From a virus, in IMG/VR virus record IMGVR_UViG_3300046533_000398, positions 1 to 22,687 of that record: 22,687 nt of DNA; one strand, given 5' to 3'. Shown one piece after another: positions 4,103-19,610 of the stretch. The notes beneath the pieces were generated by a model that was given only the letters and a program-made list of their open reading frames with translations, searched no databases and was not told the origin of the DNA. The position numbers and the translations under genes were made by a program. The first letter of the stretch is position 1, and the number at the start of each line of letters is the position of its first letter.

Positions 4103-4257
4103 CGGCGGTCATCCAGCATCTCGAGCAGCTTCTTCGCTTCCTCGATACGAATGGGGCTGTTCGCGGACGATGCCATCCACGAAATCAATGTGCCGAGTGT
4201 TTTTTTCAACGCGGCGACTTCCCGTTTTAACGCCGCGACCTCTGGCGCCTTGGTCAT
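4099..4257 (-). CDS. 52-residue coiled-coil protein
   Basis: A short gene fitted between its neighbours by ATGA overlaps at both ends (4257/4254 and 4102/4099). The product begins MTKAPEVAALKREVAALKKT, a Leu/Lys heptad pattern that suggests a short coiled coil, and ends with a charged helix (IEEAKKLLEMLDDRR). A longer reading to 4569 is open, but that extension is only Arg/Ala-rich antisense-like sequence, so the internal ATG is preferred. Function is unknown. Confidence 0.6.
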   Translation of the reverse strand: MTKAPEVAALKREVAALKKTLGTLISWMASSANSPIRIEEAKKLLEMLDDRR

Positions 4258-4532
4258 CCGCCGGCTCCTCCAGGCTGCCCGCGCTGCGCGAGCTCGGTGC
4301 GGCTGCGCGGACTGAGCCGCGAGCAATACCAGCAGCGCCGCAGGCCGTCCGGCCCTTTCATCGTGAAATCGTGTTGCGCGTGTCCGGTGGCGCAGGGTTC
4401 CTCGGGCGTGACGTCCCAGGGGTGCGGCTCGCGCGGGCGATCGGGCGGCACGTTGGGCCGCGCCTGCTGCAGCTGCTGCTGGGCGCGGTCTTCGGCGGCC
4501 TGGGCGGCGAGGCGTTCGCGGTGCGCGCTCAT
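4254..4532 (-). CDS. Small Cys/His protein, possibly zinc-binding
   Basis: A 92-residue protein. The N-terminal third is a Gln/Ala/Arg-rich helix (RLAAQAAEDRAQQQLQQARP). The middle carries C47, H51, H54 and a CWYC knuckle (67-70), which could form a single zinc site. The C-terminal tail is Gly-rich. It overlaps both neighbours by ATGA. No specific family is recognised. Confidence 0.6.
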   Translation of the reverse strand: MSAHRERLAAQAAEDRAQQQLQQARPNVPPDRPREPHPWDVTPEEPCATGHAQHDFTMKGPDGLRRCWYCSRLSPRSRTELAQRGQPGGAGG

Positions 4533-4762
4533 GGCTGATCTCCCGGCCGCGTCGACGACTGCACCGCAACCGAATCAGGATCGGTGAAAAACTCCCCGCA
4601 CCAATCCGTCGCCGCCGTGCCCGGCCACGCGCTCATGGGCCCCTCGTCCGTGAAGTCGACGACGGGCGGCCGCCGGCGGCACTGTCCGAATGCCTCGGTG
4701 CCTGGTTGCCAGTACAGGCAGCGACTGCACGACATGACGCGCACGTCGGTGGTGAGGGTCAT
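4529..4762 (-). CDS. Four-cysteine phage protein (CSRC...GQC...DWCGEF type)
   Basis: A 77-residue protein with the pattern CSRCLYWQ, then FGQCRRRPP, then AWPGTAATDWCGEFF. This arrangement recurs in small bacterial and phage proteins of unknown function; the four Cys probably bind zinc or another metal. The ATG at 4762 overlaps the upstream stop as ATGA and is preferred to more distant starts, whose extra residues are low-complexity Arg-rich. Its stop overlaps the next start as ATGA. Confidence 0.75.
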   Translation of the reverse strand: MTLTTDVRVMSCSRCLYWQPGTEAFGQCRRRPPVVDFTDEGPMSAWPGTAATDWCGEFFTDPDSVAVQSSTRPGDQP

Positions 4763-4992
4763 GGCTCCTCCGTGACGGCGAGGCCGCCGCGCGTGGTCTT
4801 GACGTGGGGCGGCACGGTCTCGGCGCCATCGAGCAGGGACGCGCCTTTGCGCGCCGGCTTCTGTGCTTTCGCCTTCGGCGTCCGGCGCGCGAGAATGCCG
4901 CGGGCGATCGCCAGGACGGTCTGCGCCTGCTCGAGCGGCGCGCTCTCGAAGAACGCCACCACCACATCGACGGGATCTTTGCGTCGACTCAT
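4759..4992 (-). CDS. Small basic hypothetical protein
   Basis: A 77-residue protein with an amphipathic helix near the N-terminus (VVVAFFESAPLEQAQTVLAI), a basic Lys/Arg/Ala-rich middle (RRTPKAKAQKPARKGA) that could contact nucleic acid, and an acidic end. It overlaps both neighbours by ATGA. No known domain is recognised. Confidence 0.6.
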   Translation of the reverse strand: MSRRKDPVDVVVAFFESAPLEQAQTVLAIARGILARRTPKAKAQKPARKGASLLDGAETVPPHVKTTRGGLAVTEEP

Positions 4993-5420
4993 GCGGCCAC
5001 CTCGTGATCCACCGACACACCCAGCCGGTGCGCGAAGTCGGCCACCTGGTCGAGATACGCGCTGAATTCGTCCTTCGTCAACGTGGTCGTGGTCGTCAGC
5101 GCAGCGAGTTCCACGTCGTCAACGACTTCGCCCTGGGCGTCGTGAATCAGCACCCGGTGCGCGGCCGGCAGAAACCGCTGCTTGAGATACGCGTGCACCT
5201 CGAGCGGTGAATAGCCCGTGTGCGCGGCCAGCGGTGCGACGTACCCGGCCCAGTACCGCGCGTTCAGCCCCCGGGATCGGGTCGCGCCTGCCGGCTCAAT
5301 GCGGACGAGGACTTCGCCATCCGGCCACGCCGCACACGCCCGCGTGAAGGCCTGCTTCTGGCGCAGCTTGAGCTGGCCGCCGCGGACGAAGCCCGAGGCC
5401 ACATAGGCGCGCGTCGCCAT
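4989..5420 (-). CDS. NinB-like recombination-associated protein
   Basis: A 143-residue protein with a hallmark seen in phage proteins next to recombination genes: a basic strand-rich N-terminus, then SRGLNARYWAGYVAPLAAHT with GYSPLEVHAYLKQRFLP, and a C-terminal helix of the form LTKDEFSAYLDQVADFAHRL. The order basic residues, Asn-aryl-Tyr-Trp and a helix ending in KxRFL resembles NinB/Orf-type or related accessory proteins; homology is inferred from memory of such sequences. The ATG at 5420 overlaps the exonuclease stop as TGATG. A longer in-frame start exists upstream but adds only Arg/Gly-rich sequence. Confidence 0.6.
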   Translation of the reverse strand: MATRAYVASGFVRGGQLKLRQKQAFTRACAAWPDGEVLVRIEPAGATRSRGLNARYWAGYVAPLAAHTGYSPLEVHAYLKQRFLPAAHRVLIHDAQGEVVDDVELAALTTTTTLTKDEFSAYLDQVADFAHRLGVSVDHEVAA

Positions 5421-6076
5421 CACGCCTCCACCAGCACGTCGGCCGCGAGCTGCGCCACGTCCTTGTAGTCGCGGTCGCACTCGGTGAGAAACAGCCGCAC
5501 CAGCAGTTCATAGGCCTTCAAGTCGACGTGCTCGCGGTAGACGCGCACGATCACCAGGCGTAACGCCTCGGGAAAGCGATCATCGAACGACACGAAGTCG
5601 CACCACGCCGCGCCGGTCAGCCAAATCTGATGCTGGATCTGCGCGAAGTAGTCCTTCGGCACCGCGTGTGACCGCAGGTACGCCAGGTGCGTCGCCGACT
5701 TCGGACACTTGATCTCGACCAGGCCGGTGTAGCCGCCGATCTCCCCGTCGGGCGAGCCGCCGGTGGCGAGCTCGGGGTGCTGCAGGAAGCCGCACGGCTG
5801 CACGAGGGCGCCGGTGGCCGCTTCATAGGCGGCGCGCGCGTCGGCTTCCTTGTCGATCCCGCGCTGCATCTCGGCGTTCACGAAGCCGGTGTCCTGGGAC
5901 ATGTTTGTCAAACGCTCACAAACAATTTGCATGCGGAGGTCGCGCCGGGCGGCGGCCTCGCCGGTCTTGATTGTCGCCAGCATGTCGCACGCGCGCGAGG
6001 CCGTCAGCTTGCCCACGCGCGCGGCATACCAGGCCGGCGTGCGTTGATCGGGGGTGAGGATCGTGAAGGTCACCAT
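5420..6076 (-). CDS. YqaJ-like (lambda-type) recombination exonuclease
   Basis: A 218-residue protein of the PD-(D/E)XK exonuclease family that works with a single-strand annealing protein in phage recombination. LTAS (24-27) opens the domain, E54 lies in a conserved helix, RGIDKEADARAAYE spans about 72-85, and D110 in SPDG with E121 and K123 in VEIKCP are the expected metal-binding and catalytic residues. The helix after them (YFAQIQHQIWLTG) is typical of the family. The enzyme would degrade linear double-stranded DNA to give 3' single strands. Its start overlaps the upstream nuclease-like gene by 7 nt. Confidence 0.88.
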   Translation of the reverse strand: MVTFTILTPDQRTPAWYAARVGKLTASRACDMLATIKTGEAAARRDLRMQIVCERLTNMSQDTGFVNAEMQRGIDKEADARAAYEAATGALVQPCGFLQHPELATGGSPDGEIGGYTGLVEIKCPKSATHLAYLRSHAVPKDYFAQIQHQIWLTGAAWCDFVSFDDRFPEALRLVIVRVYREHVDLKAYELLVRLFLTECDRDYKDVAQLAADVLVEA

Positions 6077-6708
6077 CGGATTTCGTCCGCAGTCACGGGT
6101 TTACCAACTGGACGCGCCTCGGCGACGAGGGGCTTTTCAGGTGGATCGACAAAGACCGTTCGCCAATCAAGGGCGTTGGCGGCCAGAGAATCCCTGGACA
6201 TCACGACATACGGATCGTTGCTGCCGTTGACGGCGGGAACCTCCACGATGTCGGTCTCGGGCCACAATTCCTGAAACTGGTTTCGAAAGAAACGCTTCAT
6301 CGGCGTCGTCCATCGATCGGGCAAGAAGATCACATCGATCGCCGGCACGGCCGTTGTCCAAAAAGCCGCTTCAAATCCGTCCTTTACGTCTCGGTAGACG
6401 TACAGACACGGCACGCCCAATCGGATGTAGTGCGTAATTGGCAATGCTTCGATCGAGGCCCGGGTGTAGCGGCCCGAATTGGTCTTCGCTTCAAAGAGTC
6501 GACAGGACTGGTCCTTCACCGCCACGCGATCGGCGCGGGCGCGGACATACAGCGCCGCCGGATCCCAACAGCGTCTCAGCGCGTTTTGCACCGGTTCTGG
6601 CATGACCGTGTGATACGTCGCCGATCCCACTACCCAGCCATTCGCCGTCGCGACGGCGATCAGGTCAGCCTCGAGGGCCGCATGGTGCGGATCATTGGGG
6701 TCAGCCAT
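6070..6708 (-). CDS. PD-(D/E)XK nuclease-like protein
   Basis: A 212-residue protein with the core D60...F72-E73-A74-K75 preceded by the segment RARADRVAV and followed by strand LYVYRD (about 96-101). This fits a PD-(D/E)XK nuclease-fold domain. The C-terminal half has strands around WTTAVPAIDVIFLPDRW and IVEVPAV but no recognised motif. The chosen ATG at 6708 overlaps the methyltransferase stop by 8 nt; a longer open frame upstream is Ser/Arg-rich and unlikely to be translated. Placed between a DNA methyltransferase and the exonuclease, it may protect against host DNA or help recombination; neither role is shown. Confidence 0.65.
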   Translation of the reverse strand: MADPNDPHHAALEADLIAVATANGWVVGSATYHTVMPEPVQNALRRCWDPAALYVRARADRVAVKDQSCRLFEAKTNSGRYTRASIEALPITHYIRLGVPCLYVYRDVKDGFEAAFWTTAVPAIDVIFLPDRWTTPMKRFFRNQFQELWPETDIVEVPAVNGSNDPYVVMSRDSLAANALDWRTVFVDPPEKPLVAEARPVGKPVTADEIRW

Positions 6709-7909
6709 AGACGACCTCCCGCAGGCGCTGCCGGGCGATCCAGACGGACTCCTCATCGATGTCGCAGGTGAGATAGCGGCGCGACGTCTGGAGGGCCGCT
6801 ATCGCCGTGGTGCCACCGCCGCAGAAGGGATCGAAGACCAGGTCGCCCAGGTTCGTCAGCGCCTCGATGTAGTACCGCGCCTCAGTGGTGCCCTGCTGCC
6901 ACGGGTGCGCGTCCTTCTCTTGTTTCGAGATCACCAGGTCGTTGACGAATCGGAGATCGTCGCGACTACGAAACTTGCCCTTGACAAACCACAGCAGCGG
7001 CTTCCAGTGCACGACGATCCCGTACTCCGTCATCCGTGCCAGCGGCCCGGAGTGCACCATCGCCAGCGGCCAGAAGAACGTCAGCCCGGCGGCCTGCAGC
7101 ATCGCGATCACTTCAGGCATGCGGTGATGCGACGTGTAGGTGATCAGCGAGGCGCCATCCTTCAGGACGCGCGCGGCCACCGTCCCGAGGTCGCGATAGA
7201 TCGGCAGCGTCTTGTCGTGATAGGGCGGATCGGTGAAGACCATCGACACGCTGTCGTCGGCGATCGTGGCCGCGACGTCCACAAAGGACCCGACCTCGAT
7301 TCCCAGGTCGTCGTCGCCGACTTGGTCGAGGGCCGCCGCTGCCGCCTGCGATCGGCGCGTTGCCCGGAGTTTGTCGCGTTCGATCTTGGCGGCCAGTCGG
7401 AGTAGTTCGATCGTCGACAGTTGCTTCTCGCGTTCAATGTGTTGATCGGCGAGGTACCACTCGACGTGTTCGTCGGTCACTCGAAAGACACGCTGCCACC
7501 TATCCGCCGTGTTGTGGCCGATACCGACTTCCTTCAGGGCTGACTGAAATTCCGTCCTCTCGGAGGATCCAATTTTGCCGTTTCGCGAAGGTCGCCCTGC
7601 GCCTCGGCGAGGATCCCGACGAATAGCATCGAGGGCCTCGCCTGCGACTCGTTCGGCCCGAATACGACTCGCGATCAGGCGATTCGTTGTCGGCCCAAGG
7701 GCCTTCGCTTCCCGCGCCACCTGGGTCCAAATCTTGGCCACCTTCTGCGCCTTGGCGGCATAGGCCAGTCCCTCAAGGGGATTGATCGCCACGGTATCGT
7801 GCGCCTTGCGAATGAGCGCATCGATCTGCTGTAGCACGCCCCGCGGCACTGGCTGGGCCGGGATGGCCCGCCTAGCAATTGCCGTGGTCTTCTTGGTCGT
7901 GCCCTGCAT
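6701..7909 (-). CDS. Beta-class DNA methyltransferase (N6-adenine or N4-cytosine)
   Basis: A 402-residue enzyme. The C-terminal half is the catalytic domain: DPPY at 227-230 (motif IV), then a target region, then FDPFCGGGTT at 359-368 (AdoMet-binding motif I). This motif order marks the beta class. The N-terminal half (about 1-215) is helical, with an HTH-like stretch (SALKEVGIGHNTADRWQRVF) and a long charged helix that may hold or direct the enzyme. No cognate endonuclease lies next to it, so it is probably an orphan methylase used to evade host restriction or in regulation. ATG at 7909 is preferred over GTG at 7912 because of its AAGGG spacing. Confidence 0.9.
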   Translation of the reverse strand: MQGTTKKTTAIARRAIPAQPVPRGVLQQIDALIRKAHDTVAINPLEGLAYAAKAQKVAKIWTQVAREAKALGPTTNRLIASRIRAERVAGEALDAIRRDPRRGAGRPSRNGKIGSSERTEFQSALKEVGIGHNTADRWQRVFRVTDEHVEWYLADQHIEREKQLSTIELLRLAAKIERDKLRATRRSQAAAAALDQVGDDDLGIEVGSFVDVAATIADDSVSMVFTDPPYHDKTLPIYRDLGTVAARVLKDGASLITYTSHHRMPEVIAMLQAAGLTFFWPLAMVHSGPLARMTEYGIVVHWKPLLWFVKGKFRSRDDLRFVNDLVISKQEKDAHPWQQGTTEARYYIEALTNLGDLVFDPFCGGGTTAIAALQTSRRYLTCDIDEESVWIARQRLREVVYG

Positions 7910-8886
7910 CACTCGCCCTTCGCCGCGTTCTTCTTCGCGTCCGCCTCAACCGCCCGCTTCTTCAACGTCTCCCACGCGCCGGGCTCGGTCGCCGCCAAGT
8001 ATTCGCGCGCCACCTGCGGCGACTGCTTCCAGGCCTCGGCGAGCAGCGCGGTCCCTTCATCAGCCACCGCCGTCAGGTCGGTCAGCCACTCGTCGAAGGC
8101 CTCGGGCTTCGCCTTATCGGTCGGCTTCGGGTCGCGCGTCGGGCCGGCGAACGCTTCGTCGACGGTCGTATCGCCTTCCTTGATGGCCGTGGCGAGGCCC
8201 TTGAGCGTGCCCAGGTGCTCGAGGGTGATGTCTTCGACGCCCTTCACTTCGAGCAGGCGAAACACCTTGTCGTTCAAGACGCCCAGCTTCAGGAAGTAGG
8301 CGAGCATCGCGTCGCGGCGCTTGACGAGCGTCGACGCATCGCCGACGGCGACCTGGCGGCAGGCTTCGTAGACCGGGCCCCAGAAGGCTTTTGGCACGAC
8401 CTTGAGGACAGCGTTACGGATGGCGATCGACGTCGCGGCGTTTGACGTGACGCCGACCATGTCGTCGGAGAAACGCTTGCCGTTCTTCGACGTGATCCGG
8501 CGTTTCGTCTCGAAGGCAATCAACACATTGTTTTGAATGTCGAACGCGGTCCCGCGGGCCGTGATGAACTTCCCGTCATCGTCGACGGGGCGGCCTTCAA
8601 TCCGCATGTTGCCGTAGGCGCTAGCGAGAATTTCCGCCAGCCGGGCCGACGGGCCTTCGATCGTTTTCCCGTCCCGCGGCAGGGCGTAGATGCAGCTCTC
8701 GGCCGTGTCCTGGTCGAGCGTGGCCATCTCGAGCGCGCGGTCCTTGAAGGTTTTCAAGCTGCGCGGGAAGCGCTTGGCCGTGGCGATCTGCACGTCGATT
8801 TCGCCCCGGGTGATCGCCTCGATCGCGTGGACACTCGTCACCTCGAGGGGATCGGGTTCCAGCACCGTCGCACCGTCTTTCGTCAT
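7909..8886 (-). CDS. Putative single-strand annealing / recombination protein
   Basis: A 325-residue protein of a type commonly found beside YqaJ exonucleases. The core contains a helix (ALEMATLDQDTAESCIYALP), then IEGPSARLAEILASAYGNMR, a sandwich-like region ending ITSKNGKRFSDDMVGVTSNA, and a helix ITSIAIRNAVLKVVPK-like segment (here ATSIAIRNAVLKVVPK). The C-terminus is charged and Lys/Ala-rich. By position and style it is likely to be the annealing partner of the exonuclease, but identity with RecT, Erf or Sak families is not established. The ATG at 8886 has a GGAGGG site 7 bases upstream and overlaps the small upstream gene as ATGA. Confidence 0.65.
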   Translation of the reverse strand: MTKDGATVLEPDPLEVTSVHAIEAITRGEIDVQIATAKRFPRSLKTFKDRALEMATLDQDTAESCIYALPRDGKTIEGPSARLAEILASAYGNMRIEGRPVDDDGKFITARGTAFDIQNNVLIAFETKRRITSKNGKRFSDDMVGVTSNAATSIAIRNAVLKVVPKAFWGPVYEACRQVAVGDASTLVKRRDAMLAYFLKLGVLNDKVFRLLEVKGVEDITLEHLGTLKGLATAIKEGDTTVDEAFAGPTRDPKPTDKAKPEAFDEWLTDLTAVADEGTALLAEAWKQSPQVAREYLAATEPGAWETLKKRAVEADAKKNAAKGE

Positions 8887-9002
8887 CGGCAAGCCCTCCA
8901 GATCAGGTGTAAACGGCGCCACACGCGCGTGAACCAGCGCGGCCGCCCGACGGGGATCCCGGGCGGCAGGACGGGCGGCCGCGGCGAGAGCAACGTCGTC
9001 AC
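8883..9002 (-). CDS. 39-residue basic micro-gene
   Basis: A tiny ORF fills the gap between two genes exactly. It starts with GTG at 9002, which overlaps the upstream stop as GTGA, and ends in TGA overlapping the downstream ATG as ATGA. The product begins MTTLLSP, the same seven residues as its upstream neighbour, then a Pro-rich segment, then a basic Trp/Arg-rich tail (FTRVWRRLHLIWRACR). The coupled junctions are the main evidence; the short length and the lack of a known family leave it uncertain. Confidence 0.5.
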   Translation of the reverse strand: MTTLLSPRPPVLPPGIPVGRPRWFTRVWRRLHLIWRACR

Positions 9003-9310
9003 GGCGTCCCCACCCGCGGATACGGGCCCCGGGCCTCATCGATGGCCGGGTAGATGAGATCGCGGATCTGGGCTTTCTCCCTGGTACCGATGTCGAGGCC
9101 CTCGACGAGCCGCCAGATCGCCTGGAGCGTTTCGAACATCACCGGCGCCGCGGCGATCAGGTACGCATTCGCATGCGCCGCTTCTGGCGAACCGCCATGC
9201 ACGCTCGCCACGATCTCTCTGGCGACCCCATCGAAAGATTTGCCTAAAATCGACCGCCTCGGTCCAACCGTCCACGGCCCCGGAGTCAGCGGCGACAGCA
9301 GCGTTGTCAT
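8999..9310 (-). CDS. Small phage protein with the HANAYLIAAAP motif
   Basis: A 103-residue protein with the features of a widespread small phage protein: an N-terminal TPGPWTVGPRRS stretch, a strand-rich middle, then HANAYLIAAAPVMFETLQAI followed by a C-terminal helix. Relatives are common in early operons of tailed phages and have no settled function. The ATG at 9310 overlaps the upstream stop as ATGA. Longer in-frame readings add Arg/Ala-rich sequence and are not preferred. Confidence 0.75.
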   Translation of the reverse strand: MTTLLSPLTPGPWTVGPRRSILGKSFDGVAREIVASVHGGSPEAAHANAYLIAAAPVMFETLQAIWRLVEGLDIGTREKAQIRDLIYPAIDEARGPYPRVGTP

Positions 9311-9612
9311 CGCCGCACCTCGTAGCCGTCGGCGATCTCCCCGTGGGCGGGCGGCTCGGGGCGGCAGCGGCCGGGATAGATCGGCGCCCGGCGCGCGCGC
9401 TGCTCGGCATACGTCGGGTGCCAGTGTTCCGCGAAGGGCTGCGCGGCGAAGCCGGTGATCACGGTCGCGCCGCAGTCGGCGCACGCCCAGCGATCGGCGT
9501 CCCAGAGTTTGTACGGGGCGCCGTCCTCGAGGAGTTCTTCGACGGTGACGCTGTTGCGCACCACGTGCATGAAGCGGCCACAGCCACAGAGGACGGACGA
9601 GGCGGTCGGCAT
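9307..9612 (-). CDS. Small zinc-ribbon protein with NSVTVEELLEDG motif
   Basis: A 101-residue protein. C9 and C11 and a later CADC knuckle (44-47) would form one zinc-binding site. Between them is NSVTVEELLEDGAPYKLWDADR, a segment I have seen in small phage proteins. After the ribbon comes VITGFAAQPFAEHWHPTY, with His residues. The function is unknown. The start overlaps the excisionase-like gene stop as TGATG, and its stop overlaps the next start as ATGA. Confidence 0.7.
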   Translation of the reverse strand: MPTASSVLCGCGRFMHVVRNSVTVEELLEDGAPYKLWDADRWACADCGATVITGFAAQPFAEHWHPTYAEQRARRAPIYPGRCRPEPPAHGEIADGYEVRR

Positions 9613-9827
9613 CAGGCCTGCCGCCTAAAAAAGCGCGATTGCCCCCATTGGCCGGCGAGATAGCGATCGACCAAGTCGGCGCGGTAGCGCACGGTCTTAC
9701 CGAGTCGGGGCTTGAGTTCCTCTAGAAACGGCAGCTTTCCCTGCGTTTTGAGATTGCGGAATGTTCCCACCGGCATTTTGAGCAACCCGCAGATTTCCGC
9801 CGTCGTGTAACACGTCGGGGCGCTCAT
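9612..9827 (-). CDS. Excisionase-like winged HTH protein
   Basis: A 71-residue protein of the MerR/excisionase-type HTH group: CYTTAEICGLLKMPVGTFRNL forms helix-turn-helix, then a wing LGKTVRYRADLVDRYL. Such proteins recognise direct repeats and act as recombination directionality factors or as small regulators. Position right after the Cro-like gene, in the divergent early operon, fits an excisionase, but the same fold serves other DNA-binding roles. The ATG at 9827 overlaps the stop of the Cro-like gene by ATGA. Confidence 0.7.
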   Translation of the reverse strand: MSAPTCYTTAEICGLLKMPVGTFRNLKTQGKLPFLEELKPRLGKTVRYRADLVDRYLAGQWGQSRFFRRQA

Positions 9828-10108
9828 GCCACCCTCGACTCACGTGTCCGGCGGCGACGACGCACGGCAACCCGCTGGCGGCCGTCTTGCGGTTCGTTGG
9901 CCTGCGCCGGATCAGGGCCGAGCCGCAGGCGCTCTAGCGGAATCGCGAGGGCTTCCGCCAGGCGCACCACGGTCTGATAGGTCTGGCGCTTGGGGGTTTG
10001 GGTTTCCAGTTTCGAAATGACGTTTTGGGGAATGCGGCTGATATCCGCTAGGCGGCGTTGCGTCCACTGCCGCTGTTCGCGGGCGGTGCGGAGGTAGATG
10101 GGTTTCAT
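9824..10108 (-). CDS. Cro-like XRE regulator
   Basis: A 94-residue protein with a classic XRE helix-turn-helix: REQRQWTQRRLADISRIPQN, VISKLET, then a helix YQTVVRLAEALAIPLERL. The C-terminal tail is Arg-rich (about 75-94) and may help DNA binding. It is the first gene of the early operon and is transcribed away from the plus-strand HTH gene, so by position it is the Cro-type partner of that regulator. Its predicted promoter contains the operator GCGATATCGC. Confidence 0.85.
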   Translation of the reverse strand: MKPIYLRTAREQRQWTQRRLADISRIPQNVISKLETQTPKRQTYQTVVRLAEALAIPLERLRLGPDPAQANEPQDGRQRVAVRRRRRTRESRVA

Positions 10109-10346: not shown

Positions 10347-10874
10347 ATGGATATTAACTGGCCGCGCATTCGGGCGTTCTACCTGCACTGCATGCAGACG
10401 AAACGCCTGACCCAGAAGGTGATCATCGCGCGCGGCGGCATCCGGAGCCAAAGCCTGCTCTCGCGCATGATCAACAACGATGGCTATGGGCCGACCGTCG
10501 AAATCTTCGTGCGGGCAGTGCGGGGACTTGGTATGGACATCCTCCAGTTCTTTACCGAATTGGAGCGCCATGAACGCACGCTTGCCCAACACGAGGAGTC
10601 CTATGGCCGTTCACCGTCTCCCCGGGCGTCCGGCGGGCTCACCGATGCCCAAATCCTGGCCGCCATCGCCCAAGTCAGCCAAGAGAGTCAAACCTTGGCC
10701 GCTCGCATCGACGATCTCCGCAGCACTCTCGGCAATGCGCGGCGTCCTCGCCCCGCTCGAGCCGGAGATCCTCAAGGAAGTCACGACCGCCCTGCCCCGG
10801 ATCCTGCATTTACTGATTCACGATCTCCGGCAGAAAAAGAAGCCAATGCTGCACGCCCTGCCGCGCGCCGATAG
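10347..10874 (+). CDS. HTH regulator, probable lysogeny repressor
   Basis: A 175-residue protein. The N-terminal 75 residues form a divergent helix-turn-helix (RLTQKVIIARGGIRSQSLLS, then RMINNDGYGPTVEIFVRAVR). A helical coil follows (LTDAQILAAIAQVSQESQTL, to about residue 130). The last 45 residues are Pro/Arg/Ala-rich and look like an out-of-frame reading, while another frame that begins inside it looks real. There is no LexA-type peptidase domain. It heads the plus-strand operon with int and has an operator over its own -10 box, so it probably acts as the repressor. The true C-terminus is uncertain. Confidence 0.65.
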   Translation: MDINWPRIRAFYLHCMQTKRLTQKVIIARGGIRSQSLLSRMINNDGYGPTVEIFVRAVRGLGMDILQFFTELERHERTLAQHEESYGRSPSPRASGGLTDAQILAAIAQVSQESQTLAARIDDLRSTLGNARRPRPARAGDPQGSHDRPAPDPAFTDSRSPAEKEANAARPAARR

Positions 10875-11105: not shown

Positions 11106-12362
11106 ATGGCACGCAAGGAAAAGGGTATTCGACGACTCCCGAGCGGCAACTGGTACGTCAGGGTCCGCGTGAACGGCGAGGTCATCCCGCAAACCTTTCC
11201 GGGGTCCACCTCGCTCGAGACGATGCGCCAGTGGCGCGACGCGCAGAAGCAGGCGCCGCCCCCGCCGGCGCCGGTCGGCGGATCGTTCTGGGATGACATC
11301 GAGCAGCACCTGGCCCGCCCGACCGTCGCCAGTAAGACGGCGACGATCAAGCAGCGCACGGCCCATCTGATGTTGTGGGTGGAGGCGCTCGGCCGCGACC
11401 GCCCGCGCGCCAGCATTCAGCCGCGCGAGATCGAAGCGGTGGCCGCACGCTGGCGCCGCACGCCGACCAATCAGCCCGACCCGACGATCCGCGGTCGCCG
11501 CGGCCGCCCCAGCGCGCCGCACGGCCTGGCGCCTGGCACCGTGCGGAAACGGCTGTTGTATCTCCAGCTCTTTTTCCTTGAGCGCAACGGCGCGGCGGGC
11601 GCCAATCCGGTGCGGGGCTTACTGAAGCAGCATCGCGAGCCCAAAGCGGAAGCCCGGGCGATCGACTATGCCGTCATTGAGCGCGCGCTCGCGGCGATGC
11701 CGACGACACGGCTCGAGGGGTCGCGTCGCGGGCCGGCCCCACAGCGCGTCGTCGTCAACAAGGCCCCCTTACGCGCCCGCGTGATGGCGTACACCGGCAT
11801 CCCGCCGATGATCCTGATGCAGATCAGACCGGAGGACATCACGTGGACGACGCCGGCGTCAGTGCGCGTCCCGCCGCGCGACAAAGGGGAGGGCGTGGAA
11901 GCGCGCACGCTCCCGCTCGACGGGCCCGGCCTCGAGGCGTTCCGGCAGTTCCATGCCGCGCACGCGTATGGCGCCTTCGCGGTCGGGGCGGTCAACGTCT
12001 CGTTCAAGCGGGCGTTGAGGCGCACGGGGGTCACGGCGGGCAATCTGCATCTGTATGACCTGCGCCACAGTTTCTTGACCGAGGTCTACATCCACACGCG
12101 CGACGAAGCGACGGTGGGGCGCCTCGGCCTGCATGCGGAGGGATCACCGATGCCGGCGCGCTATACGCGGGGGGCGCATGCCGTAGTGGACCGGGCCGCG
12201 GTCGCGATGGTCGGCGCGGCGCTCGGGGCCCGCCAGCGGGAGGTGGCCCTGCCAGGGCCTGCGGCGGCGGCGCCAGTACGGCAACCGGCCCAAAAGTGTC
12301 ACGCGAAAGTGTCACGACGACGGAAGACCAGCAAGCAGAAGCACTTGAGAGCCGTCTCGTAG
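11106..12362 (+). CDS. int: Tyrosine integrase with unusual catalytic residues
   Basis: A 418-residue tyrosine recombinase. It has an N-terminal arm-binding-type strand region (about 8-30: IRRLPSGNWYVRVRVNGEVI), a core-binding helical domain (about 60-175) and a C-terminal catalytic domain. The nucleophile is probably Y353 in ARYTRG, Arg-II is R320 in YDLRHS, K260 fits the beta-hairpin Lys and H343 the third box. The usual Arg-I position in TG-x-R is Pro (P233 in TGIPPM), and the first His of HxxR is Tyr (Y317). It should insert the phage at tRNA-Glu. Its stop codon lies one base before the att core, and its 3' end encodes two arm repeats. Confidence 0.9.
   Translation: MARKEKGIRRLPSGNWYVRVRVNGEVIPQTFPGSTSLETMRQWRDAQKQAPPPPAPVGGSFWDDIEQHLARPTVASKTATIKQRTAHLMLWVEALGRDRPRASIQPREIEAVAARWRRTPTNQPDPTIRGRRGRPSAPHGLAPGTVRKRLLYLQLFFLERNGAAGANPVRGLLKQHREPKAEARAIDYAVIERALAAMPTTRLEGSRRGPAPQRVVVNKAPLRARVMAYTGIPPMILMQIRPEDITWTTPASVRVPPRDKGEGVEARTLPLDGPGLEAFRQFHAAHAYGAFAVGAVNVSFKRALRRTGVTAGNLHLYDLRHSFLTEVYIHTRDEATVGRLGLHAEGSPMPARYTRGAHAVVDRAAVAMVGAALGARQREVALPGPAAAAPVRQPAQKCHAKVSRRRKTSKQKHLRAVS
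12293..12316 (+). repeat. P-arm repeats (two copies of AAAGTGTCACG)
   Basis: Two copies of the 11-bp motif AAAGTGTCACG start at 12293 and 12306, 13 bp apart, inside the int coding region. The same motif recurs on the far side of the core at 12523-12544. By analogy with lambda arm sites these are candidate integrase arm-type binding sites. Confidence 0.7.
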
Positions 12363-12405
12363 TCCTTTCAAGGCCAAAACACGGGTTCGAATCCCGTTGG
12401 GGACG
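12363..12405 (+). other. attP core: 3' half of tRNA-Glu(TTC)
   Basis: The sequence matches the 3' half of a tRNA. The anticodon loop CTTTCAA (12365-12371) holds anticodon TTC. It is followed by the 3' anticodon strand GGCCA, variable bases AAAC, and a T arm with stem ACGGG / CCCGT around loop TTCGAAT (12381-12397). The acceptor 3' strand TGGGGAC and discriminator G end at 12405. This matches tRNA-Glu, whose 5' end in many bacteria is GTCCCC. The 5' half is absent and no CCA is encoded, so this is not a working tRNA but an attachment core that would restore the host tRNA gene on integration. Confidence 0.88.
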
Positions 12406-12729
12406 TACCCTCAAATCACTCGAAATACTGAGCAAAACATCAATAAATCAGCCAGTCCGCGCCGTGAAGGTACATGCTGTGGACTTCCAATTGCTCCCGA
12501 TTTCTCCCACGAGCGAGTACGGAAAGTGTCATGAAAGTGTTATGGCAGAGCTATGGGGGTTTACGTCATCCCTGATGGCGATCGCGCCGCCTGCGCCCGT
12601 TCTGGCGGTTCTGGGCGGCCTCCAGCCCGTCGTCGTTCGTCCGGCCATCTCGGAGGTCCGCTGACGGCCGTCCGACAGCCTCTGGGCCGAATCATTGGGG
12701 TTTTTGCGGGCATTGGTCTTGCCTCTTGG
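12406..12729. other. Gap with AT-rich stretch and P'-arm repeats; no gene
   Basis: No convincing gene is seen in this 324-bp gap between the att core and the exported-protein gene. The part at 12411-12446 is relatively AT-rich, as expected of att DNA that must bend. The P'-arm repeats lie at 12523-12544. Longer open frames towards 12553 give a Gly/Arg/Pro-rich product and lack a ribosome binding site. Confidence 0.6.
12523..12544 (+). repeat. P'-arm repeats (AAAGTGTCATG and AAAGTGTTATG)
   Basis: Two tandem 11-bp copies start at 12523 and 12534. Together with the P-arm copies they give the consensus AAAGTGTYAYG. They lie about 118 bp beyond the core. The same orientation and motif on both sides of the tRNA-like core indicate one intact attP. 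Confidence 0.7.
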
Positions 12730-13494
12730 ATGGCCATGATCGACAACAGGATCTCCCAATCTCTCTGCTCCGCGACCACCGTCGTGCTGCTATTCATGAG
12801 CGCCACGCTCGGCGCCCAGACGCCCGCACCCATTCCGCTGCGGCCGTTGTTCGATCAGATTCGCGGCTGGTCCCCGGAGCACGGTGCCCTCTACATGCTG
12901 ACCTACCGCTACCATGACCACACGCCGCAGACCGGCGACCAGGTCTGGAGTCGCATCGCCGAAGCGAAAGGGCGTCAGCCGATCAATCCGATCGAACAGG
13001 CGTCCTATGCCTTCGTCACCGGCTACTACGAGGCCTTAAGTCAGACGTTCGAACTGATGACGAGCGGACGCTTCGTCTCCACCGATCCACTCATCCCCTT
13101 ACTCGTGGGCGCGCATCGCGACCAGGTCGCCGTCGTCATCGAAGGACGTGTCTACGATCAAGTCTTCAACACGCTGAGAACGACGACGCACGGTCGCGCG
13201 CTCGATGTCGCACGCGCCGTTGCGTTGCCCGCGCTGCACGCGGCCAAGCCGTTGTGCCAACTGCCCGCCGTCGGCTTCGTCGGCCTCGAGGTCATCTATG
13301 GCAGCAAGAATTTTCTAGATCACGCCGATGACTCGCTCAAGGCCGAAGTCCTGACCGTGGTGACACCGTCCGCGACGTGCCGCCAATTCATCGCCGGCGC
13401 CATCTCCGAGGACGAACTGCTCCGCAGCGCCGATGTCTACCTGCAAGATCGGGATAGTCTCGAGACCCGCAAAGTCACGTTGGCGATCCAGTAG
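12730..13494 (+). CDS. Putative exported protein of unknown function (cargo gene)
   Basis: A 254-residue protein. From the ATG at 12736 it has a Sec-type signal peptide: short N-region (MIDNRIS), hydrophobic core (ATTVVLLFMSATL) and a likely cleavage around GAQ/TPAP, ending near residue 28. The mature part contains helical stretches such as NPIEQASYAFVTGYYEALSQ and three Cys residues, two of which (in LCQLP and ATCRQF) could pair. I recognise no family. It is read on the opposite strand to the converging tail genes, next to attP, which fits a moron or lysogenic-conversion gene. No Shine-Dalgarno site marks the start, and 12736 is as likely as 12730. Confidence 0.65.
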   Translation: MAMIDNRISQSLCSATTVVLLFMSATLGAQTPAPIPLRPLFDQIRGWSPEHGALYMLTYRYHDHTPQTGDQVWSRIAEAKGRQPINPIEQASYAFVTGYYEALSQTFELMTSGRFVSTDPLIPLLVGAHRDQVAVVIEGRVYDQVFNTLRTTTHGRALDVARAVALPALHAAKPLCQLPAVGFVGLEVIYGSKNFLDHADDSLKAEVLTVVTPSATCRQFIAGAISEDELLRSADVYLQDRDSLETRKVTLAIQ

Positions 13495-13554: not shown

Positions 13555-13842
13555 CTACGTCTCGTCCGCCGTGTTGCCGCCGAAGCGTTCCGAGAATTCG
13601 TCATCAGAGATCACTTCGATCGGCTGGCCCGAGTAGCGATTCGAGATCACCCACTCGGTCTCGTGCAGCTCGTAGGCCTTCGTGTCCGTGAAGACGCGCG
13701 GCAGGCCATCCGTGAAGAGGTCCGGGATCAGGACCGCGCCGATCGGCAGCGGCTGGGCGAGGAGGTACTGCTCCGCGAACACCTTCAAGGGGCGCTCGGT
13801 GTGCTGCTTCTGATTACCCTGCGGCGGAAAAGGGGCGGCCAT
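13555..13842 (-). CDS. Hypothetical protein at the end of the tail operon
   Basis: A 95-residue protein, the last visible gene of the late operon. The start at 13842 has a strong AAGGAG site six bases upstream. The product is mixed strand and helix (LPIGAVLIPDLFTDGLPRVF, then ETEWVISNRYSGQPIEVI) and ends EFSERFGGNTADET. It may be a tail accessory or a small chaperone, but no family is recognised. A short copy of the DNA for EFSERFG lies just downstream of its stop. Confidence 0.65.
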   Translation of the reverse strand: MAAPFPPQGNQKQHTERPLKVFAEQYLLAQPLPIGAVLIPDLFTDGLPRVFTDTKAYELHETEWVISNRYSGQPIEVISDDEFSERFGGNTADET

Positions 13843-13852
13843 GTGATCTCCT

Positions 13853-14389
13853 TCAGGGCAACTCGTAACTACCGCGCACAGAGAGCACGGCGCCCGCGGC
13901 CCACGTGAACGGGGTGGTGGGATTCACCAGTGCGCCGGACACCGTCGCCATATAGACGCCCGCGCCCAGGCCATAGGCCGCGATGGGTCCCTGAATGGAT
14001 CCGCCGCCCGTCATCGCCCCGACGCGCAAATGCGTCGCCTGCGCGTTCGCCCCGGGCTCCAGGCGCGGCGTGAAGGGGAGCGACAGGGTCCAGTAGGAAC
14101 TGCTCCCGTACGTGGTGGTCGACCCCATCACCAGCACGATCGCGACGTCGATCCATTGCCCGATCCGGAAATACCGCCCGATGAGGGTGGCGTTCCCGAG
14201 GCCCGGGCCGATGTTGTCGGCGCCGGCCCACCCGGGGACGTAGGGGGTCCAGAGGCCGCTGACGCCGGGCAAGGCATCGATCGGATCGAGCACCACGGTC
14301 TTGATCTGGTTTTTGTTCCAGACGGTGCCGACGGTGTTGGTGCCGTCGTCGTCGACGAGCGCATTGAACGGCGCGCGGTTGATGCTCAT
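13853..14389 (-). CDS. Distal tail protein with fibre-like beta domain
   Basis: A 178-residue Gly/Thr-rich protein. Its middle has the style of phage tail-fibre or tail-spike distal beta domains: GNATLIGRYFRIGQWIDVAI, then VLVMGSTTTYGSSSYWTLSL. It lies after the tail hub and overlaps it by ATGA. A role in host contact is likely from position. It is far too short to be a complete fibre, so it may be a tip or decoration protein. Confidence is moderate since the family is judged by style alone. Confidence 0.65.
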   Translation of the reverse strand: MSINRAPFNALVDDDGTNTVGTVWNKNQIKTVVLDPIDALPGVSGLWTPYVPGWAGADNIGPGLGNATLIGRYFRIGQWIDVAIVLVMGSTTTYGSSSYWTLSLPFTPRLEPGANAQATHLRVGAMTGGGSIQGPIAAYGLGAGVYMATVSGALVNPTTPFTWAAGAVLSVRGSYELP

Positions 14390-16779
14390 TGCCCACCTAA
14401 CGTCTTGGCGAGTTGGCGAATCAAGTTGTCGAGCGAAAAGCGCGTCGTGGACGCGGTGACGTCGAAGCGCGGCGCGAGACCGGGCGCGATGTCAATCTCG
14501 GAAATCTGCACGTCCTGGATCACGAGGTCGGCCACGATCGGCGGGCTGGCGAGATTCACCGTCACCGGCTTCCCGGACTTGGTCTTCAGGTCGCGCGTCG
14601 CGTAGCGCACGGTACGGATCGCCGTCGCGAAGATCGCGAGCGTCGCATCACAGAGGGCCGTGAGCGACGGGATGCCGCGGCGTTCATCGACAATCGGCTC
14701 GCCTTCGTACACGCCATCGGCGGGCGTGATGCCGTTGACGGCGTCGATGACCGCTTGCGAGGCTTGCGCGGCGAGGGCGTCGCGCTGCACCCAAATGTTG
14801 ATCGGCGTGCCCTTCGGGATGGCCGCCGTGATGCCGGTGACCCCGGTGAGCTGCGGCACGGCGACGAGATGGTCGCCATAGCGGACAGAGTTCACGAGGG
14901 CGCCCGGCCCCGACGCCGGGATGCCGGTCACGTTGTTTCCTGTCACGCCGGTATAGCGAATGACCTGGCCGCCGTCCAGGGTCGCCCAGCCCTGCGCCGG
15001 GAGGGCGCCGAGGCCCGACGTCGGGAGCGACGTGGCGCCCGCGTTGATTTGGCCGGACGGCTGCGTCAGGCCGGAGGTATCGGTCCCTGGCGCAAACGCG
15101 CCGAGTGATCCATCCGGGGTGGCATCCTGCACGCCCGTGGTCGCGGTATTCCCGGCAATGGTCTGCTGCAGTTTCAGCTGCGTGCCGTTGACCGAGGTCC
15201 GATAGTACTTCCGGGAGATGGTGCCGCTCGGGCCGACGGCGATGCCCGCGATCGTGGCTTGCGTCAGGGCCGCCGCGCTCGCGTTGGCGGTCGGGGGCGT
15301 CACGCCGCTGTCGGGATACGCGCTGTCCTGGAACAAGGGCGTATCGGTCGGTGCATAGGCGAGGAGATTGCCGCCCGATTGAATCACCTGCCACGTCCCG
15401 CCATTCCGCCGGCGCCAGGCATGCGTCCAGGTCACGCCCGCGGGCGCGGCCGCATGGTTGGTGAGATAGCAATACACGCTCTTCGCGACGGTCCAGCCAT
15501 AGTTGGTCTGCCACGACAGCGCCTGCGCGACGGTGAGCGGGCCGCTGGCGGGGCTCAGGTGGGTCTCGTGCGTTAGATCGTTGGGGTCGGAGGCGGTGCT
15601 GTACGAATAGGCGTACTCAACGACATCCCCAATGTGGGGCGGTGGGGCCGTCGCGTTGTAGTCGGGGGGCGTGCCGCCCGACCCGAAGTGCCCTGGTGAA
15701 TCCACTTGCGTCGGCGCATCGGGCGTCATCGTCGGGTCGGCGATCGTGCGCGTGCCGAGCGTCGTGAAGACGGTGATCGGACTCGGCAGCGTTTCGCCGG
15801 TCGCCGTCACGAAGGTGTAGGCGCCCTTGTAGGTGCCGACGCCCAAGCCGGCGCCCGCCACGGGCGTGAGCGAGGGCTCCGTCGAGGGCGTCACCCCCGG
15901 GCCGATGATCGTCCCGTCCCCGCCCAGCGCACAACGGGTATAGGCCAGCCGCTGCGTGAGCGCGATGGCCCGCCCGCCGTCGGGGGCAAACATCACCGCG
16001 TCGTTGATCGGCACAATCGTCTCGCCCGCCAGCACGTCACTGAGCGTCGGCTCCGCGTGCCCCTTGCCATAGACGCGCGTCCGCAGTTGCGAGGTGTCGG
16101 CGCTCGAGGTGATCGGCGGCTCATTCAAGAACGGGTGCGCGGCATCGATGGGATCGCAGGGCGCATCGGCGAGCTCGGTGAAGAGATAGGCGACGCCGTC
16201 CTCGAACTTGAAATAGCCGAGGACCAGTTTCGCGAGCTGCGCGAAGGCGCCGCTCATGCCTTCGGTGCCGTCGAGGAACACGGTGACCGGCGGGAGACCC
16301 GCCTCGATGCCGGCGGTCGAGAGCGCCGGGGCAAAGGACGCCAGGAGCTCGAGCGCGACCGTGGTGGCGGAGATGTTCGCCCAGGATCCGAACGGCCGGC
16401 GACGGTTGGCCTGCTGCGTGTCATCGATGGCCGCGCAGTCCCACGCGACCGTGTGCGGCCGGCCGACGTAGCTGAGAGCGATAGTCTGCAGGGTGCCGCT
16501 GAACAGCACGATGGGAGAGTCGGCGTTCAGCGTGACGACGAGTTTCTGATTCGGCTGCGGGGCCGTCGGCCCGTAGTAGGTGAAGACGCAGCTATTCGGC
16601 GCGTCGTTGAGGATGTCCGAGATCCGCACGCTGCCGACCTTGACCGCGCCGGTGATCCACACGCCCGAGAGATAGATCCCGACCTTCGTCGCGCGGATCG
16701 GGATCAGCGCCGCCGGCAGGTAATTGAGCCGGAAGTTATTGAGGCGCGCGGTGCCGAGGACGGCGGGCTGCGTCGGCAT
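14386..16779 (-). CDS. Tail hub / tip protein
   Basis: A 797-residue protein encoded just after the tape measure, where siphoviruses place the baseplate hub or tail-tip protein. The N-terminal 240 residues resemble a hub core (VGIYLSGVWITGAV..., LVVTLNADSPIVLFSGTLQT, YFKFEDGVAYLFTEL). The middle has repeated Gly/Thr/Pro-rich beta segments (for example GTYKGAYTFVTATGETLPSP), as in host-contact domains. The C-terminal part (about 640-797) is helical, then strands. Its start overlaps the tape-measure stop by TGATG. Receptor binding is an inference. Confidence 0.75.
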   Translation of the reverse strand: MPTQPAVLGTARLNNFRLNYLPAALIPIRATKVGIYLSGVWITGAVKVGSVRISDILNDAPNSCVFTYYGPTAPQPNQKLVVTLNADSPIVLFSGTLQTIALSYVGRPHTVAWDCAAIDDTQQANRRRPFGSWANISATTVALELLASFAPALSTAGIEAGLPPVTVFLDGTEGMSGAFAQLAKLVLGYFKFEDGVAYLFTELADAPCDPIDAAHPFLNEPPITSSADTSQLRTRVYGKGHAEPTLSDVLAGETIVPINDAVMFAPDGGRAIALTQRLAYTRCALGGDGTIIGPGVTPSTEPSLTPVAGAGLGVGTYKGAYTFVTATGETLPSPITVFTTLGTRTIADPTMTPDAPTQVDSPGHFGSGGTPPDYNATAPPPHIGDVVEYAYSYSTASDPNDLTHETHLSPASGPLTVAQALSWQTNYGWTVAKSVYCYLTNHAAAPAGVTWTHAWRRRNGGTWQVIQSGGNLLAYAPTDTPLFQDSAYPDSGVTPPTANASAAALTQATIAGIAVGPSGTISRKYYRTSVNGTQLKLQQTIAGNTATTGVQDATPDGSLGAFAPGTDTSGLTQPSGQINAGATSLPTSGLGALPAQGWATLDGGQVIRYTGVTGNNVTGIPASGPGALVNSVRYGDHLVAVPQLTGVTGITAAIPKGTPINIWVQRDALAAQASQAVIDAVNGITPADGVYEGEPIVDERRGIPSLTALCDATLAIFATAIRTVRYATRDLKTKSGKPVTVNLASPPIVADLVIQDVQISEIDIAPGLAPRFDVTASTTRFSLDNLIRQLAKTLGGQ

Positions 16780-19088
16780 CAGGACGCCCCGAACTGCTGG
16801 CCCCGCATCGCCGCGCGCATGATTTCATCCGACACCTGGCGCGCGACGTCGGCCGCCGTGCCGTTGACGTGAATCGTGATGTTCTGCACGAGGCCGCCCA
16901 CGCCCCCGCCGCCACTCGTCAACGGGACAATGGCTTCCTTCCCGTGCAGCATCGCGAGCGTCCCGCTGCCGAAATCCCCGACGCCGCCCGCGGCAAAACT
17001 GTATTTGGGCAGCTGGAACGACGGCGTGTAGCCCGGCGTGTAGCCGGCGAAGGAGGGCGCCTGGAACGCCCCGCCCGTCGAGCCGCCCGCACTATTGGCG
17101 GCGGTATAGGTTCGCGTGGCCGCGGTGGCGGCATTCAAGGAGGCGACGGTCTTGTCAAGCGCGGTGGCCTTGCGCGCCGCCGCCTGCGCGGCGTCGTCAT
17201 CGGCCTTCGCTGAGGCGAGTAACGCATCGGTGTATTGCTTGTAGAGCAGGTTCTCCTGCTGCGCTTGGTCGATGCCGGCGACCTTCTTCGCGTGCAGCGC
17301 GTCCAGCCCCTTCTGGAGGGTGTCATAGGCAGTGATCTGCTGGGCGATGCCCCCCGAGGCCGTCAGGCCATAGGCGGCGTTCAGCTTCGTTTGCGCGTCC
17401 AGTTCTGCGAGCACCGCCGCGTTGACCACGTCCTTGCGCTGGTTCTCGAGCGCGATGATCTTGGCGCTGATCGCCTCGTGCGCCTTGCCATAGTCCTCGA
17501 TCAACTTCATCCGATCTTTCTCGGACGTGATGTTGTCGTAGACCGATTGGGTGAGGGCGAGTTCCTGTGCATCGAGCCGTTGCAGCGCGGCGATCTGCTC
17601 TTCGGTCCCGTAGGCTTTCGCGTTCGCCGCGACAACGGTGTCGAGCATCTTGATCTTGGCGGCGTAACTCGCCATTTGCATCGCATCAAAGGCCGCCTGG
17701 GCTTTGGTGGCTTCGGTCACGGCGGTTTTCAAGGCCTCGAGTTCCGCCGCGGTGAGCTGTGGGTAGGCTTTTATCAACGCCGCCATGGAGGCGCCGGCGT
17801 TGATGTAGTAGGTGACTTGCTCGGCGAGGACCGGATTGATCCCGGCGATCGTCTCGTGGTACGAGGTGCCTAAGGAGTTCAGCTCCTTCCAGCCCTCCGC
17901 GAACCGATCCGCCGCCTCGATCTCTGCTTTCGTCAGGACGATCCGCTTTTCCTGCTTCGGCAGTTCGATGTCCGTCGCGGCGGCGGCCGCCTGACCCGCG
18001 CGCGTGAGTTTGTCAAACGTCTGGGCGAGATTCGTGACATCGCCCGAGAGCAACACCAGCAGTTTCTCGTACGTACTCAGCTTGCTAAACGCCTCGGCGC
18101 CGATGACGGCCGCGCCGGCCTGTGACGTCGCCGCATTCTTGGTGCGGACGACGAACTGGTCCCAGGCATCGCCGAGCTTGTCGATCGCCCCGACCTGTGC
18201 GGTCGTGGCCGCGGTCGCCTTCTCCATCGATGCCGTAAAGCCTTGGTCGATGGCCTGCGCAATGCCGCCATACGACTTCTGCATCAGCTCGACGCCGAGT
18301 CGATTGCGTTCCTGCACGTTCGCCACGCCCTCGAGCGCCTTCGCCACGGTATTGAACTGCTGATCGACCCCCATGTTCATCAGGGCCTGATAGTTCAGGC
18401 CGAGTTTTTTGACCGCGTCCACGACGGGGGCCGTGCCACCTTCCAGTGCGATGCCGAGCCTAAAGGCCGACTGCGTAAAGTCCTCGACGGACACATGCGC
18501 GGCGGCCCCGACCTCGGCGAATTTCTGCAACTGCTCGACCGAGAGGCCGGTCTTCGCGCTCATGTCCGCGAGCGCCCCGGCGTTGTCGAGGATGGCCTTC
18601 CCCACGTCGATCAAGGCCTGCGCGCCTTCTCGGCCCCATTGCACGAGTTGGGTGGTGCCCAGTGAAATCCCGAAGCCGGCCAGGACGCCGCTCGCCACCG
18701 ACCAGGCCGACGTCGTGGTCTGCGTCGCCCGCGCGAGCCGCAGCATCTCTTCCGAGGCGCCGCGGGCATGATCGGCCAGGCTCTGGACCCCGGCCGGCAC
18801 GTCCTGGCCGAGCGCCCGCAGCTTGTCCACGGCTTGTTGGGCGGTGTTCCCGAGCCGTTGCAGCTCGTCGTAGGTCAGCTTCGTGACGCCGCCCAGGCGG
18901 TCGACGGCTTCGGCCGCCACGGTGGCCGCCTGCACGATCTTGACGCCCGAGATCGAGTTCTCCATCGCCGTCAGCGACGACGCCACCCTCTTCGAGTTGT
19001 CCTCGAAGGCCTGCAGCTGCGTCTGCGCGACCTGGACGGCCGTGCTGAACACAGTGAAGTCGGCTTGAAACGTGGCGCTGATGGGCAC
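16779..19088 (-). CDS. Tape measure protein
   Basis: A 769-residue protein that sets tail length. It has an N-terminal coiled region (TAVQVAQTQLQAFEDNSKRV), a hydrophobic section, the segment ADMSAKTGLSVEQLQKFAEV typical of tape measures, and long Ala/Glu/Lys helices in the C-terminal half. The C-terminus contains FAAGGVGDFGSGTLAMLHGK followed by EAIVPL, a hallmark of these proteins. At about 0.15 nm per residue it would give a tail of about 115 nm. Its position right after the chaperone frameshift gene supports the call. Confidence 0.92.
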   Translation of the reverse strand: MPISATFQADFTVFSTAVQVAQTQLQAFEDNSKRVASSLTAMENSISGVKIVQAATVAAEAVDRLGGVTKLTYDELQRLGNTAQQAVDKLRALGQDVPAGVQSLADHARGASEEMLRLARATQTTTSAWSVASGVLAGFGISLGTTQLVQWGREGAQALIDVGKAILDNAGALADMSAKTGLSVEQLQKFAEVGAAAHVSVEDFTQSAFRLGIALEGGTAPVVDAVKKLGLNYQALMNMGVDQQFNTVAKALEGVANVQERNRLGVELMQKSYGGIAQAIDQGFTASMEKATAATTAQVGAIDKLGDAWDQFVVRTKNAATSQAGAAVIGAEAFSKLSTYEKLLVLLSGDVTNLAQTFDKLTRAGQAAAAATDIELPKQEKRIVLTKAEIEAADRFAEGWKELNSLGTSYHETIAGINPVLAEQVTYYINAGASMAALIKAYPQLTAAELEALKTAVTEATKAQAAFDAMQMASYAAKIKMLDTVVAANAKAYGTEEQIAALQRLDAQELALTQSVYDNITSEKDRMKLIEDYGKAHEAISAKIIALENQRKDVVNAAVLAELDAQTKLNAAYGLTASGGIAQQITAYDTLQKGLDALHAKKVAGIDQAQQENLLYKQYTDALLASAKADDDAAQAAARKATALDKTVASLNAATAATRTYTAANSAGGSTGGAFQAPSFAGYTPGYTPSFQLPKYSFAAGGVGDFGSGTLAMLHGKEAIVPLTSGGGGVGGLVQNITIHVNGTAADVARQVSDEIMRAAMRGQQFGAS

Positions 19089-19603
19089 CTAGAACTCCTC
19101 GCGCTCGGCATCCCGCGATTCTTGTTTCAGCATGTCGACGAGGACCTCGTAGTCGTCGAGGCTCAGGCCGCGGACCCACTCGACACGCCAGCCGCAGCGT
19201 CGGGCGATGGCGAGATCGCTGCGGATGCCTTCTCGCCAGCCTGGCCGTTTTTTCGCGCGATCCGCGCCGCTTCGCAGGCCGCATCGTGGACATCGACGGC
19301 GTCCACAATCTCCCGATAGGTGTCGACATCGAGCCCGTCGATCGCCGCCTCGCTCACGGGCTCCGGCCGCCCGTCCATCCCGAGCAGCGACCACCCGACG
19401 ACATACTCGACGACCTTCGTCAGCCCGACTTTCTCCGGGTCCAACTTCGTCGGCTGCCCGGCGTGCATTTCCTTCACGAGCGCGCTGAAGATGCGGCGCG
19501 CTTCGCCGGCATTTAATTCCGCCTTGACGTCGACCCACTCGCCGCCCGAGAGCGGCAAGCGCATCACATCCCCTTGCACAAAGCGACAGCGTCGGTCTCC
19601 CAT
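19089..19603 (-). CDS. Tail assembly chaperone GT fusion (-1 frameshift product)
   Basis: A 171-residue fusion of the first 119 codons of the G-like gene with 52 codons of the -1 frame. The slip heptamer A AAA AAC lies in frame at CGA AAA AAC (plus 19253-19247). The T part (RPGWREGIRSDLAIARRCGW, RVEWVRGL and LVDMLKQE) is like the second part of GT proteins in siphoviruses. In lambda, G and GT load and hold the tape measure during tail assembly. The T reading has no plausible start of its own, which supports frameshifting. Confidence 0.88.
19163..19603 (-). CDS. Tail assembly chaperone, G-like
   Basis: A 146-residue acidic protein, the unshifted product. Its N-terminal region is strand-rich (MRLPLSGGEWVDVKAELNAG) and then helical (ARRIFSALVKEM, VVEYVVGWSL). 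The tail after the slip site is Ala/Ser-rich (ASAAISPSPDAAAGVSS). The ATG at 19603 follows the small upstream gene by 7 nt; a longer open frame is Ser/Arg-rich and not preferred. Location just before the tape measure is diagnostic. Confidence 0.85.
   Translation of the reverse strand: MGDRRCRFVQGDVMRLPLSGGEWVDVKAELNAGEARRIFSALVKEMHAGQPTKLDPEKVGLTKVVEYVVGWSLLGMDGRPEPVSEAAIDGLDVDTYREIVDAVDVHDAACEAARIARKNGQAGEKASAAISPSPDAAAGVSSGSAA
19208..19253 (-). promoter_or_regulatory. -1 ribosomal frameshift signal: slip site and hairpin
   Basis: AAAAAAC on the minus strand (19253-19247) is followed by an 8-nt spacer and a perfect 8-bp stem, TGGCGAGA / TCTCGCCA (19238-19231 and 19215-19208), with a 15-nt loop. 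This is the classical layout of a -1 frameshift signal. Confidence 0.88.
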
Positions 19604-19610
19604 CGGGTCC

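Follow-up and report, generated by a model that had tools for sequence, protein, structure and literature searches.

We analysed the whole IMG/VR record IMGVR_UViG_3300046533_000398 (22,687 bases; hereafter the window), in which positions 12293-12544 very probably constitute a complete lambda-type phage attachment site (attP) of a temperate phage of Acidobacteriota. The site adjoins a gene for a tyrosine integrase (Int) and comprises a core matching part of a tRNA-Glu(TTC) gene with a pair of arm-type repeats on either side. A first-pass annotation had proposed a complete attP at this place, and the exact core, the four repeats, their conserved geometry and the phage genes on both sides bear out the proposal, whose coordinates coincide exactly with the span of the four repeats. 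With less assurance, we favor the view that a broad and undescribed integrase group of soil phages includes Int, that in this group the first catalytic arginine (Arg I) has moved to two residues before the catalytic lysine, in at least two switches, and that the arm repeats within each attP change in concert at fixed spacing; the attPs linked to this group would give an IntDes-like active site a biological role. The elements of the site and the integrase gene are as follows.

11106-12362, + strand: tyrosine integrase of 418 amino acids with an N-terminal, beta-rich, arm-binding-like domain (phrog_1, E 1.8e-11)
12293-12303, + strand: left (P) arm-type repeat 1, AAAGTGTCACG, inside the int reading frame
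12306-12316, + strand: left (P) arm-type repeat 2, AAAGTGTCACG, inside the int reading frame
12364-12405, + strand: attP core, 42 bases equal to the 3′ half of Acidobacteriota tRNA-Glu(TTC)
12523-12533, + strand: right (P′) arm-type repeat 1, AAAGTGTCATG
12534-12544, + strand: right (P′) arm-type repeat 2, AAAGTGTTATG

The core begins one base ahead of the anticodon loop, ends with the discriminator base and thus covers the anticodon loop, the variable region, the T arm and the 3′ strand of the acceptor. When public genomes were scanned with a 41-base exact core pattern, the exact core was found in 17 genome contigs, 16 of them from Acidobacteria/Acidobacteriota (many labelled gp6) and one from Acetothermia (L022). 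Upstream of the core these contigs have the context of a tRNA-Glu gene, L025 starting inside the gene. The core is therefore identical to the presumed host attachment sequence (attB) at 42 of 42 bases, and the tRNA-Glu(TTC) sharing this 3′ half, for which the first-pass annotation had advised a search, is present in these contigs, in L025 as a truncated gene. The 43-bp core described there was right to within a few bases, since 42 are exact and the identity in L030 extends past the core to TACCCTC; its statement that Int ends one base before the core agrees with the integrase stop at 12362 and the core start at 12364. The window itself contains no complete tRNA, and the 5′ half of the tRNA is also absent. 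The exact core was also detected in 16 other viral contigs, with an Int relative encoded in 14 of the 16 records. In INPHARED, the attP region had only a 41-base match, in its tRNA-derived part, and tblastn revealed no Int relative among the INPHARED phages. In one viral contig (L003, 3497-3571), ARAGORN predicted a complete tRNA-Glu directly after int, in which a diverged 5′ half is joined to the exact core; this is possibly a phage-borne and functional tRNA at the phage's own attP.

The arm-type repeats flank the core at -72/-59 and +118/+129, and the left pair sits in the 3′ end of the int frame. The pattern AAAGTGTYAYG occurs four times in the window, counting both strands, against an expectation of 0.0099, and all four occurrences fall within these 252 bases; the heptamer AAAGTGT has no further occurrence on either strand of the window. 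In homologous attPs, the repeats stand at about -73/-60 before the core and +118/+130 after it, and their sequence differs by group: AAGTTACC in L004, L007, L010 and L015, AAGTTGCCAG in L008 and L013, AAAGGTTAGCAG in L002, and AGTTGGCC in L003. In nine of the ten homologous attPs, with L014 as the exception, a common 8-mer is found at the left and the right arm positions; elsewhere on these contigs the frequency is 4-8%. Repeats that change together within a site while keeping their spacing are the pattern expected of Int arm-binding sites. Several relatives also have a conserved segment resembling AATCAATRAAAT right of the core; its alignment with the window is poor, so it was not counted as part of the site. 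Short stretches with homology to the N-terminal arm-binding part of Int, and to no other part of it, lie just right of attP in two relatives, at about 224 bases from the core in L007 and about 217 in L014; these are possibly orphan arm-site binders that could regulate recombination.

In the mechanism that we propose, the N-terminal domain of Int (about residues 1-58) would bind the left and the right pair of arm repeats, while the core-binding and catalytic domains would bind the tRNA-derived core. The core would then recombine with the identical 42 bases in the host tRNA-Glu(TTC) gene, and integration would leave an intact tRNA gene at one prophage end.

PHROGs matches place the genes of the window in the order early genes, repressor region, int, attP, one + strand gene and tail/connector genes, so that phage DNA lies on both sides of the core. 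The first-pass annotation had likewise found tail genes rather than host genes right of the core. The same holds for the contigs of six relatives (L002, L004, L007, L008, L014 and L015), in which homologues of the tail genes follow the core in the window's order and strand with no host DNA. The complete int-core-tail order recurs in L004, L007, L008, L014 and L015, and the core-tail order in L002. In two longer contigs, 3300046736_000115 (L059/L064/L070, 29.7 kb) and L065 (31 kb), the early and tail genes of the window are collinear, with an integrase between the two halves that differs from that of the window. Host chromosome right of the core in relatives, or a second, unrelated phage starting at 13.5 kb, would have contradicted the first-pass annotation; at the first place tail-gene homologues were found, and the window gene nearest to the core on this side (12553-13494) gave no hit in the host class; the collinearity of both halves in the two longer contigs speaks against the second.

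These data also bear on a misjoin near 12.4-13.5 kb of two unrelated phages, or of phage and host DNA. The + strand gene at 12553-13494 would suit such a chimera, having no PHROG, Pfam or viral-contig relative; in the host class, 193 genomes yielded no match either, in a search without a positive control. However, one repeat sequence occurs on both sides of the core, the int-core-tail order recurs in contigs of other metagenomes, and both halves are collinear in L064 and L065. A chimera is thereby largely refuted, and we regard it as scarcely credible. The alternative that the site is an attL or attR, at a prophage end, was rejected on the arm repeats on both sides, the tail genes right of the core and the collinear relatives. 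Judged from sequence comparison, the neighborhood is that of one phage, and the site is neither a chimeric junction nor a prophage end.

A core with both arms and with phage genes on both sides implies that the sampled DNA was unintegrated or in tandem. As established for lambda, when attP recombines with attL or attR, an attP remains between the copies, and head-to-tail prophage copies in the chromosome would thus carry an intact attP between the int end and the tail end. Such a tandem prophage fits the window, where nothing speaks against an array, but at least six independent attP contigs would each have to come from such an array, and a host flank was seen in none of them; we consider it unlikely. 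The window DNA would then be unintegrated, and circular or virion (packaged) DNA is most likely its physical form. The first-pass annotation had reached the same view, which agrees with the gene order and the phage genes on both sides. The record is, on the other hand, classed as linear by IMG/VR, and the terminal overlap that the annotation had suggested looking for was not seen in a repeat scan of the window, which leaves the circular or virion form unproven.

The AlphaFold2 model of Int (mean predicted local distance difference test score, 72) has an N-terminal three-stranded sheet and helix followed by core-binding and catalytic domains with the fold of a tyrosine recombinase, and its top structural match was lambda Int (1z19; Z 15.3, root-mean-square deviation 7.3 over 244 residues). 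The positions discussed below are encoded as follows.

11802-11804, + strand: codon of Pro233, at the place of the catalytic Arg I
11877-11879, + strand: codon of Arg258, the proposed relocated Arg I, two residues before Lys260
12054-12065, + strand: Box II, Tyr317-x-x-Arg320, with Tyr for the usual His
12162-12164, + strand: codon of the nucleophile Tyr353

Box I of Int reads TGIPP. Of the canonical RKHRH pentad and tyrosine, K260, R320, H343 and Y353 are present, while Pro233 stands in the place of Arg I and Tyr317 in that of the first His; since known subgroups share these departures, they limit the subgroup and not the fold. A peptide-pattern search with the window Int alone retrieved nothing from the viral contigs, whereas alignment-based profile searches did find relatives. 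We compared 75 sequences including that of the window, with less than 90% mutual identity and with Lys, Arg II and Tyr aligned; sequences without the aligned Lys, such as Xer-type proteins, were set aside. Arg I is missing from 63 of the 75 (Pro in 44, Thr in 12, Ala in 4, Ser in 2 and Ile in 1), and all 63 have Arg at window position 258. The 12 sequences that keep Arg I have Ser (6) or Thr (6) at that position and never Arg. Tyr replaces the first pentad His in all 75. Fisher's test gave p 4e-14 for this exclusion of the two arginines, kinship being ignored, and a tree built without the Arg I and 258 columns gave two changes per site, falling together. These results suggest that the window Int probably uses Arg258 in place of the missing Arg I. 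The invariant upstream Arg223 was also considered as the replacement and was set behind Arg258, which is preferred because it is strictly exclusive with Arg I.

The loss of Arg I, nearly invariant in tyrosine recombinases, to Pro233 might instead mark a relic with an inactive integrase and a decayed attachment site. Against this, the reading frame is open, the core exact and the arms intact; 44 distinct sequences with K, R and Y retained have Pro at the Arg I place, and Arg is found at 258 whenever Arg I is missing. We therefore judge a relic very unlikely.

Several observations weigh against parts of this interpretation. No terminase or major capsid gene was recognized in the 22.7-kb record, closure of a circle was not seen, and a phrog_2 search placed no terminase in the closest relatives. 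With the Pfam integrase model, the window Int stays under the cut-off score. Only two independent switches underlie the arginine swap, and a sign test on them gives p 0.5; as they do not reach significance by themselves, the argument depends on the perfect exclusion and on precedent. The host is probably a member of the Acidobacteriota, Vicinamibacteria / 'gp6', as judged from the shared tRNA gene, a sequence also present in the non-acidobacterial Acetothermia (L022), and no prophage of the window phage was found in 15 genomes with the tRNA-Glu or in 193 genomes of the class. One bacterial genome contig (G202:C45), from the class of the tRNA-Glu genomes, carries a related int (42% identity); about 200 bases after it comes a tRNA-Glu 3′ half, and then sequence that matches none of the window genes. 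This arrangement is consistent with an integrated relative that uses the same tRNA-Glu gene and whose other end is not on the contig.

The remaining genes of the window are arranged as follows.

382-9410, - strand: early module with a RecE-like exonuclease, NinB, a DNA methyltransferase and unknowns
9612-9827, - strand: excisionase-like small helix-turn-helix (HTH) protein (phrog_66, E 3e-5)
9824-10108, - strand: Cro/repressor-type HTH regulator (phrog_5823, E 5e-11)
10347-10874, + strand: putative repressor, divergent from the cro-like gene, its role suggested by position
12553-13494, + strand: 313-amino-acid protein between attP and the tail genes
13555-22685, - strand: late module with tail proteins, tail completion, major tail, head closure and adaptor proteins

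Homologues of the excisionase-like protein lie near int in L003, L007, L008, L010, L013 and L014. The putative repressor has no PHROG or Pfam match, and its homologues occupy the equivalent place in L013, L014 and L015. The gene at 12553-13494 may possibly be expressed in lysogeny and mark a slot for lysogenic conversion; at the corresponding place, L065 has another small lipoprotein-like gene (5017-5532, - strand). At the right end of the window, a cut-off reading frame (22347-22685) matches portal proteins as well as collagen-like tail fibre/CBM_5_12 models.

Over 9.0 kb (window 1-9006), the relative L061 matches the window at 99.3% identity; beyond this stretch its integrase and regulator region is a different one, and the changeover falls at the start of the 7909-9039 gene. 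This suggests an exchange of an integration-immunity cassette. In relatives recognized by their tail or early genes (L063, L064 and L071), 3′ halves of other tRNAs stand at the equivalent genomic place, tRNA-Arg-like in L064 (6684) and tRNA-Cys-like in L063 (6299) and L071 (15421), which implies that the target tRNA has been exchanged within the phage group.

The attP and its integrase would tie uncultured soil phages to a host group, the Acidobacteriota that have this tRNA-Glu, and to an integration site. As a complete attP-int pair they could become the basis of integration vectors for this phylum, for which genetic tools are few. Nature also provides, in the integrase group, an experiment on whether tyrosine recombinases allow their catalytic arginine to move, with many sequences in both states and matching DNA sites.

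The window shares with the lambda system a core flanked by arm-type sites, an int gene next to attP, the predicted Int fold, and the placement of early and late modules on opposite sides. It differs from lambda in that the core is a tRNA 3′ half, the arms are simple tandem pairs, Arg I is missing and the Box II His is Tyr. The attP of mycobacteriophage Boilgate has a 43-bp tRNA-Lys core and putative arm sites, and the tRNA is restored at one end upon integration (PMC10865867), as would be the case for the window phage. The host phylum and the tRNA are different, and the window core is exact whereas that of Boilgate has five mismatches. In tRNA-dependent lysogeny of the Fionnbharth type, a core of about 10 bp does not rebuild the tRNA and a tRNA is borne by the phage; the window instead has a 42-base core and no tRNA.

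For the integrase, the nearest precedents are two subgroups, with which Int was compared by published description. Some members of the IntCTnDOT subgroup have no Arg I in Box I, and in IntDOT a downstream arginine functionally replaces it (PMC8138268); in the window group, the sequences without Arg I likewise have Arg at an alternative downstream place. In contrast to IntCTnDOT, the window Int belongs to a phage, not a conjugative transposon, and has a tRNA target. The IntDOT arm-domain model PF17293 found no match in the window and did match the control genome, Bacteroides ihuae. The IntDes subgroup, described only from Desulfovibrio and with unknown function, combines a shifted Arg I, Tyr for the first His and an arm-binding domain (PMC8138268), and the window Int resembles it in all three, with Arg258 as the proposed shifted arginine and an arm-binding-like N-terminal domain. 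An attP of the tRNA 3′-half kind is already well known; less expected is the proposed relocation of the arginine in a group of phage integrases that come with their attPs.
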